Origin: Cognatishimia activa
GTDB lineage: Bacteria; Pseudomonadota; Alphaproteobacteria; Rhodobacterales; Rhodobacteraceae
Assembly (NCBI RefSeq): GCF_001458335.1
Contig: NZ_CYTO01000009.1
Span: forward strand, 444,385 to 508,384
Direction: 5' to 3'
Length of the DNA: 64,000 nucleotides
In this document: piece after piece, positions 28,002 through 36,221 of the stretch
How the letters are laid out: each line of letters opens with the position of its first letter
Position numbering within the stretch: position 1 is the first letter of the stretch
Notes under the pieces: generated by a model
Database searches by the model: none
What the model was told of the DNA's origin: nothing
What the model saw: the letters and a program-made list of their open reading frames with translations, nothing else
Position numbers and translations under genes: made by a program

Positions 28002-28168
28002 CTATCCCTGACAATCCACTCTTGGCGACGCACTCGAATTGCTGGTCATTTTTTGATCCTTGGTGGATTTTTCTGCCTGATTTTCGAGCAAATACCACCA
28101 TTTTCATTATTTTTGGCACGCAGTTTTATTGTTTTTCGACCTTTTGCACGGGTGTGATGAAGGTGCAG

Positions 28169-28270
28169 GACGCTTAGGGTTCCGCCGCATTCCCAGCGGG
28201 TCAGGTCCGAGAAGCGTCACCTTGTTGGCAAAATCCAGCAAGGCACACGGCGGGCCAAAATCCCGGGAGA
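28169..28270 (+). promoter_or_regulatory. Guanidine-I (ykkC class) riboswitch aptamer
   Basis: The conserved guanidine-I elements occur in order: AGGGTTCCG (28176-28184), GGTCCGAGA (28204-28212), ACACGG (28245-28250) and CCCGGGAGA (28262-28270). Helices fit: GACGCTT (28169-28175) pairs with AAGCGTC (28212-28218); CCGC (28185-28188) with GCGG (28196-28199); and CCTTGTTGG (28220-28228) with CCAGCAAGG (28235-28243), one G-U pair. It ends 96 bases before the start of the binding-protein gene. This class senses free guanidinium and controls guanidine export, import or breakdown. The expression platform is not clear: there is no T-run, so translational control or an alternative helix using 28277-28282 is possible. 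Confidence 0.92.
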
Positions 28271-28365
28271 CTACTGCGCTGGTTTTGTCCGCGCCCTGAT
28301 CTCTTTGTTCCGCCAGCGGGTCCAAACCAACGAAAAAATCGGCGGGACGCGCAATGGGGAATGAC

Positions 28366-29430
28366 ATGAAGATCACAAAGCTACTGTCCGCAACCGCCTT
28401 GTCTTTGGGCGTGCTTACCGCTGCAGCGCCGCTGGCCGCAGAAGAGAAAACCGAATTCAAACTCGCTTGGTCCATCTATGTGGGCTGGATGCCGTGGGGC
28501 TATCTGGAAGACAGCGGGATCATGGACAAATGGGCCGACAAATACGGCATCGACGTCGAGATTGTTCAGTTTAACGACTATATCGAGTCCATCAACCAAT
28601 ACACCGCAGGCGCTTTTGACGGTGTTTCCGCGACCAACATGGATACGCTGTCCATTCCATCGGGTGGCGGTGTCGACACAACCGCTCTGATCGTGGGCGA
28701 TTACTCCAACGGCAATGACGCGGTGATTATGAAAGGCGAGGGTGGTCTCGCGGACCTTAAGGGCAAGCCGGTCAATTTGGTCGAGCTCTCTGTATCTCAC
28801 TATCTTCTGGCACGCGGTTTGGATTCCGTCGGCCTTGAGGAATCCGATCTTGACGGTGTCATCAACACGTCTGATGCCGACATGATCGCGGCCTATGCCA
28901 CCGATGATGTGGACGCGGTAGTCACCTGGAACCCGTTGGTGTCCGAAATCACTGGGTCCAACCCGACCGCGAACGTCTTGTTTGATAGCTCTGACATTCC
29001 GGGCGAAATCCTCGACCTGATGGTGGTGAATACCGAAACCCTCGCCGGCAACCCATCTTTCGGTAAGGCTGTGGCGGGAGCATGGTACGAGCTGATGTCA
29101 TTGATGGCAGCGGGCGACGAAGCTGCGCTGACGGCGATGGCAGAAGCGTCCGGTACCGATCTGGCGGGCTATAAAGCACAGCTTGCCGCGACTGAGATGT
29201 TCTACGATCCCGCAGCAGCGGTAGCGCAGTCCACATCCGCTGATCTTCCGACCACAATGACCAGCGTCGCTGAGTTCCTGTTTGACAAAGGCATCCTTGG
29301 CGAAGGCGCGCCAAGCGCTGACTTCGTGGGCATCGCTTACCCGGATGGTTCCACCACCGGGGACGCGGGCAACGTGAAGTTCCGCTTTGACACGACCTAC
29401 ATGCAGATGGCCGCCGACGGCGCGCTGTAA
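28366..29430 (+). CDS. NitT/TauT-type ABC transporter binding protein, predicted guanidine importer
   Basis: 354 residues from ATG 28366, which has GGGGA 5 bases upstream; the in-frame ATG at 28354 overlaps that site. A signal peptide (MKITKLLSATALSLGVLTAA) precedes the mature start EEKTEFKLAWSIYVGWMPWG. The fold is the type-II binding protein of nitrate/sulfonate/taurine importers. Similar proteins are annotated as putative urea transporters. Here it lies first in an operon under a guanidine riboswitch and upstream of a guanidine-hydrolase-like enzyme, so guanidine is the most economical ligand. The aromatic-rich IYVGWMPWGYLE could hold a cation; that is speculation. Confidence 0.85.
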   Translation: MKITKLLSATALSLGVLTAAAPLAAEEKTEFKLAWSIYVGWMPWGYLEDSGIMDKWADKYGIDVEIVQFNDYIESINQYTAGAFDGVSATNMDTLSIPSGGGVDTTALIVGDYSNGNDAVIMKGEGGLADLKGKPVNLVELSVSHYLLARGLDSVGLEESDLDGVINTSDADMIAAYATDDVDAVVTWNPLVSEITGSNPTANVLFDSSDIPGEILDLMVVNTETLAGNPSFGKAVAGAWYELMSLMAAGDEAALTAMAEASGTDLAGYKAQLAATEMFYDPAAAVAQSTSADLPTTMTSVAEFLFDKGILGEGAPSADFVGIAYPDGSTTGDAGNVKFRFDTTYMQMAADGAL

Positions 29431-29442
29431 GCACCTGAAACC

Positions 29443-29469
29443 GGAGCAGACCTGGCAAAGGTCTGCTCC
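29443..29469 (+). terminator. Intercistronic hairpin after the guanidine-operon binding-protein gene
   Basis: Perfect 10-base arms GGAGCAGACC (29443-29452) and GGTCTGCTCC (29460-29469) with a 7-base loop, 13 bp after the stop. No T-run follows, so it is more likely an mRNA 3'-end stabiliser than a strong terminator. Confidence 0.6.
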
Positions 29470-29490
29470 TTCACAACAGGAGGTCCGTTA

Positions 29491-30303
29491 ATGCGCCTGA
29501 TCAACCTCATACCGGCACGACCGGCGGCCATTTTTCTGGCGGCTTTGCCTTTCATCGCGATTTTCGCAGCCTATTCCATCGGCTCTGACATTCGCCTTGA
29601 AGCCAATCCGCAAGACAAGTTGCTGCCAGCGCCGTCCACCATCGCCGAAACCGCGCAACGGTTGTTCACGGAACCCGATCGGCGGTCCAAAGAAATTTTC
29701 CTTTGGAATGATACGTTCGCGAGCCTTGCGCGTCTTTTCGGTGGGGTAGGGATCTCAGCCTTGTTGTCCTTGCTCATCGGCCTCGCGATTGGGTTGCTGC
29801 CTTACGCGCGTTCAACAATGTCGAGCTTCATCGCAGTACTCTCTATGGTGCCGCCTCTTGCGCTCTTACCAATCCTCTTCATCATGTTTGGTCTTGGGGA
29901 AACATCTAAAGTTGTCCTGATTGTCATCGGGATCACCCCGTTTATGACCCGCGATCTTGCACAGCGCGTGCTGGAAATCCCGCAAGAACAAATTGTCAAA
30001 GCACAAACCCTTGGCGCATCTTCCGCTGTGATCGCGATGCGGGTGGCCCTGCCGCAGGTGCTGCCGCGGTTGATCTCTAACGTGCGCCTGTCGCTTGGGT
30101 CTGCTTGGCTCTTTCTCATTGCCGCAGAAGCAGTCGCGTCCAATGTCGGCCTTGGCTACCGCATCTTCCTTGTGCGCCGCTATTTGGCGATGGATGTCAT
30201 CCTCACTTACGTGATTTGGATCACAATCCTCGCCTTCATCATCGACTGGCTGCTCAAGACGCTCTCGCGCAAAGCCTTCCCTTGGATGGAGTCAGGCCTA
30301 TGA
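29491..30303 (+). CDS. NitT/TauT-type ABC transporter permease (predicted guanidine importer)
   Basis: 270 residues with about six membrane segments and the BPD_transp_1 EAA loop EQIVKAQTLGASSAVIAMRVALPQVLPRL (about 165-195). An ideal ribosome site AGGAGG lies 8 bases before the ATG. It overlaps the ATPase start by 4 bases (ATGA). It would pair with the binding protein at 28366 and the ATPase at 30300. Confidence 0.88.
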   Translation: MRLINLIPARPAAIFLAALPFIAIFAAYSIGSDIRLEANPQDKLLPAPSTIAETAQRLFTEPDRRSKEIFLWNDTFASLARLFGGVGISALLSLLIGLAIGLLPYARSTMSSFIAVLSMVPPLALLPILFIMFGLGETSKVVLIVIGITPFMTRDLAQRVLEIPQEQIVKAQTLGASSAVIAMRVALPQVLPRLISNVRLSLGSAWLFLIAAEAVASNVGLGYRIFLVRRYLAMDVILTYVIWITILAFIIDWLLKTLSRKAFPWMESGL

Positions 30304-31058
30304 GTTTCGTAACTGTCTCAAATGTTTGGCAAAAATACGGGGATCGCTCGATCTTGGAACGGGTCAATGTGACCATCGAGGAAGGCGAATTTATCTCAAT
30401 CGTCGGCGCATCTGGTTGCGGTAAATCCACTTTCTTGCGCATGCTCCTGGCGCAAGAACGCCCCTATAAGGGCGAGATCAGCATCGATGGCGGGGACACT
30501 GCCAAAGAACCCAACCGCGAACGCGGTGTGGTGTTTCAGAAGTACTCGGTCTTTCCACATCTCAGCGTGCGCGAGAACTTGATTGCTGCGGAAAGCTTTG
30601 ACACAGCCTTTGGCCGCCTTAGCGGAGCGAAACGCAAAGCTGCTGAAGCGCGCGCCGATGAAATGCTCGAGCGCATTGGCCTCAATCACGTTGCCGACCA
30701 ATACCCGGCATCGCTCTCTGGCGGCATGCAGCAACGCTTGGCTATTGGACAGGCCATGACCGCCAAACCGCGCATCCTGCTGCTCGACGAGCCGTTCGGC
30801 GCGCTTGATCCGGGCACACGTTTGCAAATGCACGATTTTCTTTTGGAACTGCGTGATGAGACCAACATGACGGTCTTTATGGTCACGCACGACCTGCAGG
30901 AGGGGTTCAAACTCGGGGACCGTGTTCTGGTCTTTGATAAGCCGCGCTGGGACCCGCATGACCCAGGCATGTATGGCGCGACCATCACATATGATTTCGA
31001 TGCCCGCGATGGGGGCATCCCGTTTCAATTGAAGGAGGACGCAGATGTTTCTGCATGA
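30300..31058 (+). CDS. NitT/TauT-type ABC transporter ATP-binding protein (predicted guanidine importer)
   Basis: 252 residues from the ATG at 30300, overlapping the permease stop by 4 bases; the frame is open further upstream but only inside the permease gene. Walker A GASGCGKST, Q-loop VVFQKYSVFPHLSV, signature LSGGMQQRLAIGQAM, Walker B LLLDEPFGALDP, His switch MVTHDLQEGF. The 3' end overlaps the ureohydrolase gene by 14 bases and carries its ribosome site, which couples import and hydrolysis. Confidence 0.9.
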   Translation: MSFVTVSNVWQKYGDRSILERVNVTIEEGEFISIVGASGCGKSTFLRMLLAQERPYKGEISIDGGDTAKEPNRERGVVFQKYSVFPHLSVRENLIAAESFDTAFGRLSGAKRKAAEARADEMLERIGLNHVADQYPASLSGGMQQRLAIGQAMTAKPRILLLDEPFGALDPGTRLQMHDFLLELRDETNMTVFMVTHDLQEGFKLGDRVLVFDKPRWDPHDPGMYGATITYDFDARDGGIPFQLKEDADVSA

Positions 31059-32319
31059 TCGGGACCGTTCCCGAACCCACCACCCTATGGACTTAAAGGG
31101 CACCATCGAGGCGCGCGAGAAGCGCCATCACCACCCGGACCTGACCAAGCTTGCAGGCTGGAAGGCCATGCATCTAGAGGCTGATCTGCCCGAAGGCCGC
31201 ATGGAAGAAGAACGCCAATGGGCGCTCCGCATGGGCCTGACCGGTGCTGACAGCATCGAAGACAAATCCATCCCGACTTTTGCGCGCGGGGAACTGCCGC
31301 ATTTCGCCGGGATCAACACATTCCTCAAGGCACCTTATGCCGAGGACGTTCTGGAGGTCGCAGACTATGATGCCACGGTACTTGGGATCCCATTTGACGG
31401 CGGTACAACTTACCGTCCAGGCACCCGCTTTGGCCCGCAAGGGGTCCGTAAAATCTCGGCGCTTTATACGCCCTATAACTACGAGATTGGCGTCGATCTT
31501 CGCGAGCAAATGACCCTTTGTGATGCAGGTGACGTGTTCACGATCCCTGCAAATATCGAAAAGTCTTTTGATCAGATCAGCCGTGCTGTGAGCCACGTGG
31601 CCAGCTCTGGTTCTTTGCCAATCATGATTGGTGGCGACCATTCCATCGGCTTCCCCTGTGTGCGCGGGATCGCAGAGTGTACGTCCAAGAAGATCGGTAT
31701 CGTGCATTTTGACCGTCATGCGGACATTCAAGAGAAAGACTTGGATGAGCGGATGCACACGACGCCATGGTTCCATTCCACCAACTTGCCCAATGTCCCC
31801 GCGACAAATCTCGTACAGATCGGCATTGGGGGCTGGCAGGTGCCACGCGAGGCGGTGAAGGTCGCGCGTGAGCGCAACACGAACATCATCACCATGGGTG
31901 ACATGGAAAAAATGGGCATCGACAAGACCATCGAGATGGCGCTGGAGATGGCCTGGAAAGACGTCGACATGGTCTACATGTCCTTTGACATCGATAGCAT
32001 CGACTGTGGTTTTGTACCGGGCACAGGCTGGCCAGAACCCGGCGGTTTCTTGCCTCGTGAAGCTTTGGCATTGGCCTCTGGCATCGCAGCAGAAGGCATT
32101 TGTGGCTTGGAGCTGGTCGAGGTGTCTCCGCCATATGACACATCCGACATCACCGCGCTGATGGGGACACGGGTGATCGTGGACGTTTTGGGGGCCTTGG
32201 TGTCCAACGGCAAGCTGGGGGCGCATAAGAAATTCATCGATAAGCCAGTGAGCTTACCGCATGGTGAATTCAACGGTCGCCGCTGGCGCAACGATGGCCC
32301 GCATAAGGTGGGGGTCTGA
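31045..32319 (+). CDS. gdmH: Ureohydrolase-family guanidine hydrolase (predicted, nickel-dependent)
   Basis: 424 residues, about 100 longer than agmatinases because of an N-terminal extension (1-105). GAAGGAGG precedes the ATG. Binuclear metal ligands are complete: H199 in GGDHSIG, D223/H225/D227 in HFDRHADIQ, D315 and D317 in SFDIDSID. Agmatinases and arginases have DAH at the second site; DRH, the following EKDLDERMHTTPWFHSTN, and CGFVPGTGWPEPGG are features I associate with the cyanobacterial guanidine hydrolase Sll1077 (GdmH), which makes urea and ammonia with nickel. The riboswitch and importer upstream support this. A guanidinobutyrase or agmatinase activity is the main alternative. Confidence 0.85.
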   Translation: MFLHDRDRSRTHHPMDLKGTIEAREKRHHHPDLTKLAGWKAMHLEADLPEGRMEEERQWALRMGLTGADSIEDKSIPTFARGELPHFAGINTFLKAPYAEDVLEVADYDATVLGIPFDGGTTYRPGTRFGPQGVRKISALYTPYNYEIGVDLREQMTLCDAGDVFTIPANIEKSFDQISRAVSHVASSGSLPIMIGGDHSIGFPCVRGIAECTSKKIGIVHFDRHADIQEKDLDERMHTTPWFHSTNLPNVPATNLVQIGIGGWQVPREAVKVARERNTNIITMGDMEKMGIDKTIEMALEMAWKDVDMVYMSFDIDSIDCGFVPGTGWPEPGGFLPREALALASGIAAEGICGLELVEVSPPYDTSDITALMGTRVIVDVLGALVSNGKLGAHKKFIDKPVSLPHGEFNGRRWRNDGPHKVGV

Positions 32320-32783
32320 TGCCACACGATCACCCACATCACCACCACCACCATGACCATGATCACAGCCATGCCCCGCACGGGCATGGTCACAATCATG
32401 CCCATGGCGATCATCTGCACAGTCACATGCATCACGCGGATGAGGCGGCGGACCTTCAGGTTTTAGCCACGCAATTCATCGAAGGCTTTCTTCAGGCAGC
32501 GGATAAAACCAGCTATTTAAAACTGGCTGGCGTGCCCTTTGAACGCCCCTCAAAGGACGGGGCAAAAGCGCTCAAGCTGATCGATGTAGAACTGACCACC
32601 GATTGGCAGGTTGGCACCGCATCCCCGTCTTTTGGATCTCGTGAACTTAGCTACCTGCCATTTCCCGGCGAGATGGTCCAAGAACGCACCAATATGTCGC
32701 TGATCTACGTGTCGATGGATGAAAAATCCACGCTCGATATTCGCGACTTTCTTTATCAACGAAAACAGGAGATTGAGGCATGA
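32319..32783 (+). CDS. His-rich protein, candidate nickel-delivery factor for the guanidine hydrolase
   Basis: 154 residues. The first 39 residues contain 21 histidines with Asp and Gly between, including a run of six (7-12), like the nickel-storing tail of HypB or SlyD. The remaining 115 residues form a soluble acidic domain (LATQFIEGFLQAADKTSYLKL ... FLYQRKQEIE) that I do not recognise; it has no P-loop, so it is not HypB, and no HypA-type zinc fingers. The ATG shares one base with the gdmH stop. Known GdmH needs two HypA/HypB-like helpers, absent here, so this gene may replace them. Function is inferred from composition and position. Confidence 0.75.
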   Translation: MPHDHPHHHHHHDHDHSHAPHGHGHNHAHGDHLHSHMHHADEAADLQVLATQFIEGFLQAADKTSYLKLAGVPFERPSKDGAKALKLIDVELTTDWQVGTASPSFGSRELSYLPFPGEMVQERTNMSLIYVSMDEKSTLDIRDFLYQRKQEIEA

Positions 32784-32932
32784 AACGTAGCCTTATGACC
32801 ATCGTCGGCCTCTTGGTCGCATCCCCAGCATTTGCCCATGTAGATGGGCATTTTCACACCCACGGGATCGAAAATACGCTGATTTTGGCGCTGCTTGCTG
32901 CCGGAACCGCTTATTTGCTTTGGAAGCGTTGA
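32780..32932 (+). CDS. 50-residue His-containing single-membrane-segment peptide
   Basis: Fifty residues, too short for many gene finders. The start overlaps the preceding stop by 4 bases (ATGA) and GATTGAGG supplies a ribosome site. A signal-like N-terminus MKRSLMTIVGLLVASPAFA is followed by HVDGHFHTHG (5 His in about 10 residues) and a C-terminal helix ENTLILALLAAGTAYLLWKR. It resembles the ends of HupE/UreJ nickel permeases (signal, His motif, hydrophobic segment) but lacks their core. It could be a periplasmic metal-binding membrane peptide, or a degraded HupE-like gene. It is the last gene of the riboswitch operon. Confidence 0.68.
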   Translation: MKRSLMTIVGLLVASPAFAHVDGHFHTHGIENTLILALLAAGTAYLLWKR

Positions 32933-33519: not shown

Positions 33520-34749
33520 TTAAAGATCGGGGGCGAGTGGAACGTCGATGGAACCATCTAGATATTTGGTCGGCCCATCCGCATTCGGCATCATGTCCCA
33601 CTCAAAGATATCGTTCGGCAACCAAAGCGTTGCACATGCGTTCGGAATATCGACGACGCCAGAAATGTGGCCTTGCACCGGCGCGGTTCCCAAGATCGCA
33701 TAGGCCTGCGCGCCGGAATAACCAAATTTCTTCAGGTACTCGATCGCGTTCAGGCAGGCCTGACGATAGGCGATATGTACGTCCAAATAATGCTGTTCGC
33801 CCTGTTCATCGACACTAATGCCTTCGAAGATAAGGTAATCATTGTAGGACGGTGTGATCGGTGACGGTTTGAAGATTGGGTTCTTCACGCCGTATTTGGA
33901 TACGCCCTCTTTGATCAAAGACACTTTCAGGTGCAGCCAGCCAGCCATCTCAATCGCACCACAGAAGGTGATTTCGCCATCACCCTGACTGAAATGTAGA
34001 TCCCCAATAGAAAGGCCCGCACCATCCACATAGACTGGGAAGTAGATCTTTGAACCGCGACTAAGGTCTTTGATGTCACAGTTCCCGCCATGTTCACGGG
34101 GCGGAACAGTCCGCGCGGCTTCTGCTGCTGCCGCGTCGCGCTCTTCGCCTTTCATTGCACCCATATGAGCGCTCTGCGTGTTTGGCAGAGCAGCCAACGG
34201 AGGCGTGCGGTTTGGGTCTGTATTAAACAACTCCGTTTCGCGTGTGTTCCACATATCCAGCATTTTTCGGTCCGGCAGACAGCCGATCAGACCGGGGTGG
34301 ATCAGACCGGCATATTTCACACCGGGCACGTGGCGGGATTTCGTAAACATCCCGTCGATATCCCAGATAGATTTTTGGGCTTCGGGGAAGTGCTCTGTTA
34401 GGAAGCCACCGCCGTTTTGCTTGGAGAAGAAACCGTTAAAGCCCCACAGCATGTCTTCTTTGGCACCGATGTCGAGAATCTCAACAACAAGCAAATCGCC
34501 GGGTTCTGCACCTTTGACGCCGATAGGCCCCGATAAATAGTGCACTTGTTCCAGTTCAACATCACGTACGTCGCTGGCGTCGTCGTTATTTTTGATCTGG
34601 CCACCGGTCCAGTCATAGGTTTCGATTTTGAAATCATCGCCAGGCTCAACCCAGACATTAATCGGGATGTCTGGATGCCAACGGTTGTGAATGTTCTCGT
34701 TTGTATGTGGGCTTTCACTAAGGTCCACAGAGATGAGCGTATCGGCCAT
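33520..34749 (-). CDS. fmdA: Formamidase (acetamidase/formamidase family)
   Basis: 409 residues, matching FmdA. It hydrolyses formamide, and more slowly other short amides, to ammonia and the acid. Family blocks include HNRWHPDIPINVWVEPGD near the N-terminus, YLSGPIGVKGAEPGDLLVV, FSQGDGEITFCGAIEMAG and the C-terminal GYSGAQAYAILGTAPVQGH. It is encoded 26 bp after urtE on the same strand, so uptake and hydrolysis are on one transcript. Methylophilus has the comparable fmdA/fmdB with an amide importer. Confidence 0.95.
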   Translation of the reverse strand: MADTLISVDLSESPHTNENIHNRWHPDIPINVWVEPGDDFKIETYDWTGGQIKNNDDASDVRDVELEQVHYLSGPIGVKGAEPGDLLVVEILDIGAKEDMLWGFNGFFSKQNGGGFLTEHFPEAQKSIWDIDGMFTKSRHVPGVKYAGLIHPGLIGCLPDRKMLDMWNTRETELFNTDPNRTPPLAALPNTQSAHMGAMKGEERDAAAAEAARTVPPREHGGNCDIKDLSRGSKIYFPVYVDGAGLSIGDLHFSQGDGEITFCGAIEMAGWLHLKVSLIKEGVSKYGVKNPIFKPSPITPSYNDYLIFEGISVDEQGEQHYLDVHIAYRQACLNAIEYLKKFGYSGAQAYAILGTAPVQGHISGVVDIPNACATLWLPNDIFEWDMMPNADGPTKYLDGSIDVPLAPDL

Positions 34750-34775
34750 AACGCAATCCTTTCTTTTGACTTCCG

Positions 34776-35465
34776 TTAAACTGAGAGAAATTTTGAGACC
34801 TTGGCCTCATCCACCCCATCGCGGGGGCTGTCGTGCACGAAGGTGCCGTTTTCGATGACCATCACGCGATCGGCGACGTCCAAGGCAAAGCTCAGAACCT
34901 GTTCCGAAACGATGATCGTCAGGCCCTTCTGGTCGCGAATTTTGCGCAAGGTGCGGGCCATTTCTCGAATGATGGACGGCTGGATGCCCTCGGTGGGTTC
35001 ATCCAACAGCAAAACCTTGGGGTTTGACGCCAAGGCGCGGGCGATGGCGAGCTGTTGTTGCTGACCACCTGACAAGTTGCCACCGCGCCGGTCTTTCATT
35101 TCCAACAGCACCGGGAACAGTTCGTAAATGTCTTCCGGCACTTTCTTTTGCCCGGTGACGGTCAGGCCGGTTTCCACGTTTTCTTGCACGGTCATGGATG
35201 AAAAAATCATCCGACCCTGTGGGACATAGGCGATACCATTGGCAACGCGCTGGTGGGATTTCATGCCGGTGACGGCTTTGTCGCCCACAACCACATCTCC
35301 ACCCTTTTCAGGCACAATGCCCATCAGGGTTTTCATCAGCGTGGTTTTCCCCATGCCATTGCGACCCATGATGGCGACGATCTCGCCGGGCTTCACGTTC
35401 AGATCCAGACTGTGCAGGATTTCACTTTCGCCATAGGAGGCGCGCAGGGATTCTACATTCAACAT
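34776..35465 (-). CDS. urtE: Urea/short-chain amide ABC transporter ATP-binding protein UrtE
   Basis: 229 residues, LivF-like. Walker A GRNGMGKTT, signature LSGGQQQQLAIARAL, Walker B VLLLDEPTEGIQPS. The sequence LRASYGESEILHSLDL and the IQPSIIREMARTL block are typical of UrtE. It works with UrtD at the channel of UrtB/UrtC. It lies 15 bp after urtD and 26 bp before fmdA. Confidence 0.92.
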   Translation of the reverse strand: MLNVESLRASYGESEILHSLDLNVKPGEIVAIMGRNGMGKTTLMKTLMGIVPEKGGDVVVGDKAVTGMKSHQRVANGIAYVPQGRMIFSSMTVQENVETGLTVTGQKKVPEDIYELFPVLLEMKDRRGGNLSGGQQQQLAIARALASNPKVLLLDEPTEGIQPSIIREMARTLRKIRDQKGLTIIVSEQVLSFALDVADRVMVIENGTFVHDSPRDGVDEAKVSKFLSV

Positions 35466-35480
35466 TTGGAATGCCCTTTC

Positions 35481-36221
35481 TTAATGGCCTAGGTAAACTT
35501 CGACGACCTTTGGGTCGTTCTGGACGTGATCCATGGAGCCTTCGCTGAGCAACTCGCCGCGATGCAAAACCGTGACGCGCGTCGCGATGTCGGCCACAAA
35601 ACCCATGTCGTGTTCGATCACGATCACGGAACGGTCCTGGATAATGCGGTTGAGAAGCTCGGCAGTTTTCTTACGTTCCGCGACCGACATCCCGGCCACC
35701 GGTTCATCCAGCATCAACAGCTCGGGGTCTTGGATCAGCAGCATCCCAATCTCGAGCCATTGTTTTTGGCCATGGCTGAGATAGGCCGCTTTTTCATCCA
35801 GTTGATCGGTAAGGAAAATGGTTTCCGCGATCTCTTGAATGCGGTCCTTCACCGCCTGATCTTGTTTAAAGAAGACCGCACCAAACACACCGTGGCCTTT
35901 GGGGTAGGAGAGTTCGAGGTTCTCAAAGACCGAGAGATCTTCGTACACACTTGGCGTTTGGAACTTGCGCCCAACACCGGCATGCACGATCTGGTCTTCG
36001 CGCATATCTAAGAGGTTCATACCCTTGAACTTCACGGTGCCCCCGGTGGCTTTGGTGCGACCGCAGATTAGGTCCAAGACGGTGGTCTTACCCGCTCCGT
36101 TTGGGCCAATGATCACCCGGCACTCGTTGGGTTCAACATAGAAGCTGAGATCATCGACTGCCTTAAAGCCATCAAAGGAGACGGTCAGATCTTCGACGCT
36201 GAGAATAAAACGTTCTGACAT
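35481..36221 (-). CDS. urtD: Urea/short-chain amide ABC transporter ATP-binding protein UrtD
   Basis: 246 residues, LivG-like. Walker A GPNGAGKTT, Walker B LLMLDEPVAGMSVAE, and LSHGQKQWLEIGMLL in place of the usual LSGGQ; this LSHGQKQWLEI signature is normal for UrtD. FMN-like extensions are absent. It lies 9 bp after urtC. Confidence 0.92.
   Translation of the reverse strand: MSERFILSVEDLTVSFDGFKAVDDLSFYVEPNECRVIIGPNGAGKTTVLDLICGRTKATGGTVKFKGMNLLDMREDQIVHAGVGRKFQTPSVYEDLSVFENLELSYPKGHGVFGAVFFKQDQAVKDRIQEIAETIFLTDQLDEKAAYLSHGQKQWLEIGMLLIQDPELLMLDEPVAGMSVAERKKTAELLNRIIQDRSVIVIEHDMGFVADIATRVTVLHRGELLSEGSMDHVQNDPKVVEVYLGH

Follow-up and report, generated by a model that had tools for sequence, protein, structure and literature searches.

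How a guanidine hydrolase might be supplied with nickel in a genome in which no HypA was found is the question raised by the operon examined here, which lies within a stretch of 64,000 nucleotides (nt) of contig NZ_CYTO01000009.1 from Cognatishimia activa, a marine bacterium with a 3.36-Mb genome; the whole of this stretch is called the window below. The operon comprises, in order and all on the plus strand, a Guanidine-I riboswitch aptamer, the substrate-binding protein (SBP), permease and ATPase of an ATP-binding cassette (ABC) importer, a ureohydrolase of the guanidine hydrolase type (GdmH, gene gdmH), a gene for a His-rich protein of 154 amino acids (aa) and a gene for a protein of 50 aa. 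An operon for guanidine sensing, import and hydrolysis is of an already known kind; the part beyond known biology is the accessory His-rich gene, and the less-known biology lies in the two small genes. We propose that the 154-aa protein may be the nickel-loading factor of alphaproteobacterial GdmH, built on an unrelated scaffold, which we rate from its sequence features as somewhat better than an even chance. At the level of sequence, the riboswitch, the gene order, the GdmH membership and a near-strict tie between the His-rich gene and gdmH are established. The features on which the argument turns are as follows.

31045..32319, plus strand: gdmH, guanidine hydrolase of the arginase superfamily, 424-aa product (PF00491, 256 bits)
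31129..31140, plus strand: HHPD motif, within the extension at the GdmH N terminus; HHP occurs in 95 of 95 alphaproteobacterial GdmH enzymes
32319..32783, plus strand: GdmH-associated His-rich protein, 154 aa, proposed nickel-loading factor; homologue after gdmH
32319..32330, plus strand: MPHD start, proposed amino-terminal nickel site (NH2-Pro-His-Asp upon Met removal); MPHD in 78 of 79 loci
32331..32426, plus strand: variable His/Asp tract, proposed nickel store; 13–44 residues with 1–22 His in the 78 measurable loci
32439..32780, plus strand: core domain, proposed docking domain (alignment A3, AlphaFold2)

The association of the two genes was analyzed in the best 80 of at least 577 confirmed GdmH loci, with distant members falling outside this set. 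A His-rich homologue was located directly 3′ of gdmH in 79 of these 80 related loci, and in the 80th (L044) the contig stops at gdmH. The two genes overlap in 56 of the 79 loci, and in 22 the His-rich gene starts 3–433 nt past the gdmH stop. The same arrangement was observed in distant alphaproteobacterial families, where a homologue with 28–59% identity directly follows gdmH in 13/13 loci. Among 198 genomes of the family, GdmH was detected in 27 and the His-rich homologue in 28 (27/27 shared), among 385 genomes of the class in 11 and 13, respectively (11/11 shared), and among 398 genomes of the phylum GdmH was detected in seven, all of which contain the homologue. Fisher tests for this co-occurrence gave 2e-32 for the family and 1e-19 for the class, values that overstate independence because the sampled genomes are related. 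GdmH was also found in 11 plasmid records, which were the sole coverage outside Pseudomonadota, with the homologue in all seven alphaproteobacterial records and in none of the four actinobacterial ones. As for homologues detected without GdmH, the family genome G159 harbors two short His-rich matches in different frames, G322 a truncated frame preceded by a stop, and G560 a core fused to a piece of an SBP, a fusion that arose by either deletion or misassembly. Fragments of the His-rich core were observed at L151:8073-9035 and L152:7103-7351, where gdmH was not detected; the His-rich stretch of L151 lies 3′ of the core, not 5′.

A tie of the His-rich gene to the importer instead of the enzyme was ruled out by two loci. 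In L135 (genome G655), the riboswitch stands directly before gdmH with no adjoining importer genes and the His-rich gene is kept, and in L080 the gene is kept with neither a window-type importer nor a Guanidine-I match. The stretch L135:5362-7421 thus presents riboswitch, gdmH and His-rich gene as a minimal unit, an SBP homologue (46%) being located on a separate contig. L080:2496-8657 belongs to the single-cell genome AG-470-P20 and adjoins divergent ABC-importer genes, putatively polyamine-like.

The distribution also bears on a reading of the locus as a textbook guanidine operon, in which GdmH would get its nickel from urease accessory proteins or as the free metal, with the small His-rich genes being incidental. 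The riboswitch, importer and GdmH agree with published systems as these are described in the available text of PMC12186494 and PMC11410670, the host genome has a urease, and GdmH operons without a His-rich gene do occur. However, the gene stands beside gdmH in all sampled alphaproteobacterial GdmH genomes and elsewhere in those samples is represented by fragments only, and we regard this reading as very unlikely.

The His-rich proteins comprise roughly 110–180 residues, and alignment A1 brings together the window sequence with 77 of the 79 related sequences, L019 and L035 being omitted as near-duplicates. The remaining start among the 79 loci, beside MPHD, is MHNH. The first 12 bases of the gene occur as 14 different strings among these loci, the Pro of MPHD being encoded by four codons and the His and Asp by two each. 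Retention of MPHD merely through the overlap with gdmH was ruled out, because the 22 of 79 genes that start past the gdmH stop keep MPHD and because the codons vary. In 14 distant loci (the 13 mentioned above and the Sinorhizobium locus L105), five starts are MPHD and five are MH, one of them from a GTG codon. Methionine aminopeptidase normally removes Met before Pro and normally leaves Met before His, so that both the MPHD and the MH forms are predicted to carry His at mature residue 2.

The tract that follows bears on whether the protein might instead be a store or buffer for nickel (or manganese or zinc), which would limit toxicity and supply the enzyme indirectly without docking on GdmH. 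Tract-only metal stores exist, and a His/Asp-rich tract varying from one to 22 His would suit such a role; the gene, however, is tied to gdmH rather than to urease or the importer, and L126 and L127 have nearly lost the tract and retained MPHD and the core. A store of this type appears improbable to us.

Across 26 diverse members (alignment A3), eight core residues do not vary: F53, D62, L87, G99, P103, Y112, P116 and Y130. The AlphaFold2 model has a mean predicted local distance difference test (pLDDT) score of 76.5, with the first 40 residues disordered (block means 41–47) and the core folded (68–96) into helices and a sheet. No Pfam or NCBIfam family matched the protein (Pfam threshold E 0.1), and neither the core alone nor five diverse relatives matched Pfam up to E 5. 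A profile of the family retrieved nothing better than E 0.6 from the PDB sequences, and a Foldseek search of the PDB with the model gave no match at E ≤ 0.001, the best being E 0.12. HypA, UreE or another known family was therefore ruled out for the gene on family, PDB-sequence and fold matches alike. Seven of the best ten Foldseek rows are COMM-domain or CCC-complex entries, which we treat as noise or at most a lead because the best E is 0.12 and no template modelling (TM) score in the ten rows exceeds 0.37. The titles and abstracts returned by literature searches contained no description of this protein.

The protein might also act as a partner of GdmH in structure or regulation, such as a non-catalytic subunit or an assembly factor, with its core binding the enzyme and the tract being secondary. 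The core, not the tract, is common to all members, it holds no conserved metal ligands, and adjacency to gdmH is strict. Set against this, the conserved MPHD/MH start, the His tract and the neighbour at two loci point to nickel: in L105 of Sinorhizobium fredii and in L136, the His-rich gene is followed by a gene of HupE/UreJ, a nickel permease family (PF04955; 153 and 169 bits). Moreover, no such partner is listed among the matches for the solved GdmH proteins 7esr and 9fek. We consider a structural or regulatory partner of this kind rather unlikely.

The enzyme itself shares 99% identity with the GdmH of Cognatishimia maritima. It scored 527 bits against 7esr/7oi1 (7esr being Synechocystis GdmH) and 523 bits against 9fek (Nitrospira guanidinase), all solved guanidine hydrolases, versus 173 bits against the next enzyme, the guanidinobutyrase 3nio. 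In a tree of 22 rows, the window enzyme fell within a 17-row clade that holds 7esr and 9fek (support 99/97), apart from guanidinobutyrase, guanidinopropionase and proclavaminate amidinohydrolase, and the 12 alphaproteobacterial GdmH rows formed a single group (100/99); since this is one tree with outgroups on long branches, only the split of the GdmH clade is used from it. The six metal-ligand positions of the binuclear site are kept in 22/22 rows, and the positions of W242 and W329 are Trp in 17/17 rows of the GdmH clade and in 0/5 of the others. The preliminary description had suggested a ureohydrolase of the guanidine hydrolase type, which the scores, the tree with its grouping outside guanidinobutyrase and the residues all support, and an agmatinase or guanidinobutyrase identity for 31045–32319 was ruled out by bit scores and tree. 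By analogy with the 7esr and 9fek enzymes, the window GdmH is presumably specific for guanidine and dependent on nickel. The HHP of its N-terminal extension is HHP[DE] in 91 of the 95 alphaproteobacterial enzymes, HHPN in three and HHPS in one, the extension around it being otherwise variable. Among the three actinobacterial GdmH relatives, L106 carries the similar HHHPE, and the motif is absent from L107 and L108; it is thus not exclusive to enzymes with a His-rich partner. From its sequence, HHPD is a candidate docking or hand-off site.

The proposed mechanism may be set out as follows. Binding of guanidinium to the aptamer would lead to expression of the operon, the SBP, permease and ATPase would take up guanidine, GdmH would convert it into urea and ammonia, and the urea might be used by a urease encoded elsewhere on the contig. 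The nickel of GdmH would be supplied by the 154-aa His-rich protein instead of the HypA/HypB-type pair (GhaA/GhaB) of Synechocystis. Ni2+ would be held by the processed amino terminus (NH2-Pro-His-Asp here, NH2-Met-His in relatives) together with the His tract, and the core domain would dock on GdmH and hand the metal over, with the 50-aa membrane peptide possibly aiding nickel entry or capture. The ligands, nickel binding, docking and hand-off are what we infer from these features.

In HypA, nickel is described as bound by the amino-terminal amine together with His2, which belongs to an invariant Met-His-Glu motif; RcnR, NmtR and E. coli HypB are likewise reported to use the amino-terminal amine (PMC5557546, PMC7055735). 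Like HypA, as presented in the accessible parts of these two papers, the His-rich proteins are predicted to have His as the second residue of the mature chain, and in the MPHD form an acidic residue comes next; the starts are analogous to the Met-His-acidic motif of HypA and not identical, as His2 would arise in MPHD only upon Met removal. They differ from HypA in giving no PF01155 match, in their predicted fold and in having no conserved Cys in alignment A3, whereas HypA has a zinc site of two CxxC pairs. Eight of 12 distant GdmH genomes also lack HypA. The predicted His2 start, the analogy with HypA, the absence of HypA from the host and the HupE/UreJ neighbour are, with the tie to gdmH, the grounds on which the His-rich protein is proposed as the nickel loader of GdmH. 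In its full form, to which we assign a probability of about 0.5, this reading holds that the protein represents a new class of nickel metallochaperone with a scaffold without known relative, which would be dedicated to alphaproteobacterial GdmH, would have converged with HypA on an NH2-X-His nickel site (with Met removed in the MPHD branch but kept in the MH branch) and would explain how GdmH is loaded without HypA/HypB.

Several observations weigh against nickel loading by the His-rich protein. The co-occurrence counts are not independent, the genomes being related, and the GdmH relatives at the three actinobacterial loci have no His-rich gene. An MH start in L125, L128 and L137 is possible only at a downstream in-frame start, the apparent start of L122 is neither MPHD nor MH, some members have only a very short His tract, and no conserved His or Cys was found in the core across the 26 rows of alignment A3. 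HypA is present in four of the 12 distant GdmH genomes, on contigs other than that of gdmH, and urease accessory proteins could load GdmH. From the published side, the Nitrospira guanidinase works without any known chaperone, as far as the available text of PMC11410670 goes, and one group found co-expressed chaperones to have no effect on metformin hydrolase activity in extracts (PMC11271267, in the part available). The same source describes a chaperone knockout unable to grow on metformin. Given actinobacterial GdmH without a His-rich gene and a Nitrospira enzyme without a known chaperone, a dedicated factor would not be universal.

The published GdmH and metformin-hydrolase systems are described as carrying HypA/HypB-type chaperones (PMC12186494, PMC11271267, PMC11399263, in the text available). 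The operon of Synechocystis GdmH (Sll1077) with GhaA/GhaB resembles the window in its Guanidine-I control, ABC importer, Ni-dependent GdmH and accessory nickel proteins (PMC12186494, PMC11271267), the nickel roles in the window being predicted; it differs in that the window has no HypA-type gene, the slot after gdmH being taken by an unrelated His-rich protein without known family. Nitrospira inopinata, the source of 9fek, shares the enzyme clade and Guanidine-I control, but there guanidine enters through an amino acid-polyamine-organocation (APC) permease and, according to the available text, a nickel chaperone was not found, whereas the window has an ABC importer and the His-rich gene (PMC11410670). 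The operons of metformin hydrolase (MefH/MetCaCb; HypA, HypB, HupE) likewise place a Ni-dependent ureohydrolase beside nickel genes (PMC11399263, PMC11271267), though these enzymes belong to another ureohydrolase clade (127–133 bits, versus 527 for GdmH) and are accompanied by classical HypA/HypB. Nickel loading of GdmH without HypA/HypB-type genes is called unclear for Nitrospira in the portion of PMC11410670 available. The His-rich family offers a directly testable candidate for such loading and, if the proposal is true, would extend the few known nickel chaperones by a new class; its gene also offers a marker for guanidine use among marine Rhodobacterales and in Sinorhizobium fredii, a plant symbiont.

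The remaining features of the operon are listed below.

28163..28271, plus strand: Guanidine-I riboswitch aptamer (RF00442, 80.8 bits, gathering score 63, E 8e-13, full model)
28272..28368, plus strand: leader (expression platform) from the aptamer to the SBP gene; its conserved blocks GUUCCGCC and GGCGGGAC are able to pair
28369..29430, plus strand: importer SBP (TIGR03427, 516.6 bits, cut-off 333.9)
29491..30303, plus strand: ABC permease (PF00528, 71.7 bits)
30300..31058, plus strand: ABC ATPase (PF00005, 126.8 bits)
32780..32932, plus strand: 50-aa protein, apparently made up of a signal peptide, a short stretch containing His and a single hydrophobic helix; a gene of this type in 48 of 79 loci

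The preliminary description had spoken of two small His-rich genes, closely spaced or overlapping with the others behind the aptamer. The spacing agrees with the gene coordinates, and both genes are real, as their recurrence in 79 of 80 and 48 of 79 loci indicates, the latter count having been made with a pattern of our own for 50-aa-type genes after the His-rich gene. The term His-rich, however, fits the first gene alone, since the 50-aa product appears to combine a signal peptide and a hydrophobic helix with just a short stretch containing His. This gene occupies in the window the slot taken by HupE/UreJ in L105 and L136. The 50-aa protein did not match PF04955, and the host genome gave no HupE/UreJ match. 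A HupE origin of the 50-aa gene was unsupported, its profile reaching only 6.8–7.6 bits per domain on two HupE proteins, a similarity that is not significant. The whole guanidine operon of L105 is carried on the large plasmid pNGR234b of S. fredii NGR234, and GdmH was found on plasmids in five S. fredii records.

The complete ABC importer of the preliminary description is confirmed by family matches for all three components. The SBP is an equivalog match to TIGR03427, a family that is itself named 'putative urea', and guanidine is the ligand we infer for the importer.

The covariance search likewise confirmed the aptamer, at 80.8 bits; its start had been placed at 28169, 6 nt inside the match, which begins at 28163. 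A scan with Rfam at the gathering score detected Guanidine-I in 16 of 20 further loci, the others being L124, L125, L126 and L129, and the L126 contig begins just before the SBP. A model (R1) built from 17 aptamers (alignment A4), six of which were taken from the 80 loci searched, matched in 78/80 related loci, with a partial, cut-off match in L079; it missed only L058, whose contig begins within the importer, and L080. A Guanidine-I-like element of 223 nt at L125:2791-3013 (69 bits with R1 and 41 bits with Rfam, below the cut-off) probably carries a long insertion. At L020:5047-6113, the riboswitch lies directly 5′ of the permease, and the locus gave no SBP match. The leader is conserved block-wise in 12/12 aligned close relatives and may form an 8-bp GUUCCGCC/GGCGGGAC helix. 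No covarying pairs were detected in it among these 12 relatives, no intrinsic-terminator-like site was found within 28272–28368, and folding it yielded no signal in energy (z −0.45); the platform may act on translation or through Rho. It also repeats the aptamer-like stretches GUUCCGCC and AGCGGGUC.

A shared tRNA-linked insertion site was not supported, as 10 of the 12 close loci contain no tRNA detected by ARAGORN. A match to urease alpha lies at C9:405915, on the contig that carries the operon and about 38 kb upstream of the window start, so that further use of the urea is possible. Past 33.1 kb the strand switches to an FmdB-like zinc-ribbon gene, the formamidase gene fmdA and urtE/urtD on the minus strand; fmdA and the urea-transport ATPase genes urtE/urtD (33520–36221) thus adjoin the operon on the opposite strand. 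None of the 80 related loci showed fmdA close to gdmH. In Rubrobacter indicoceani (L106), gdmH, a symporter gene, fmdA and urease genes are grouped.

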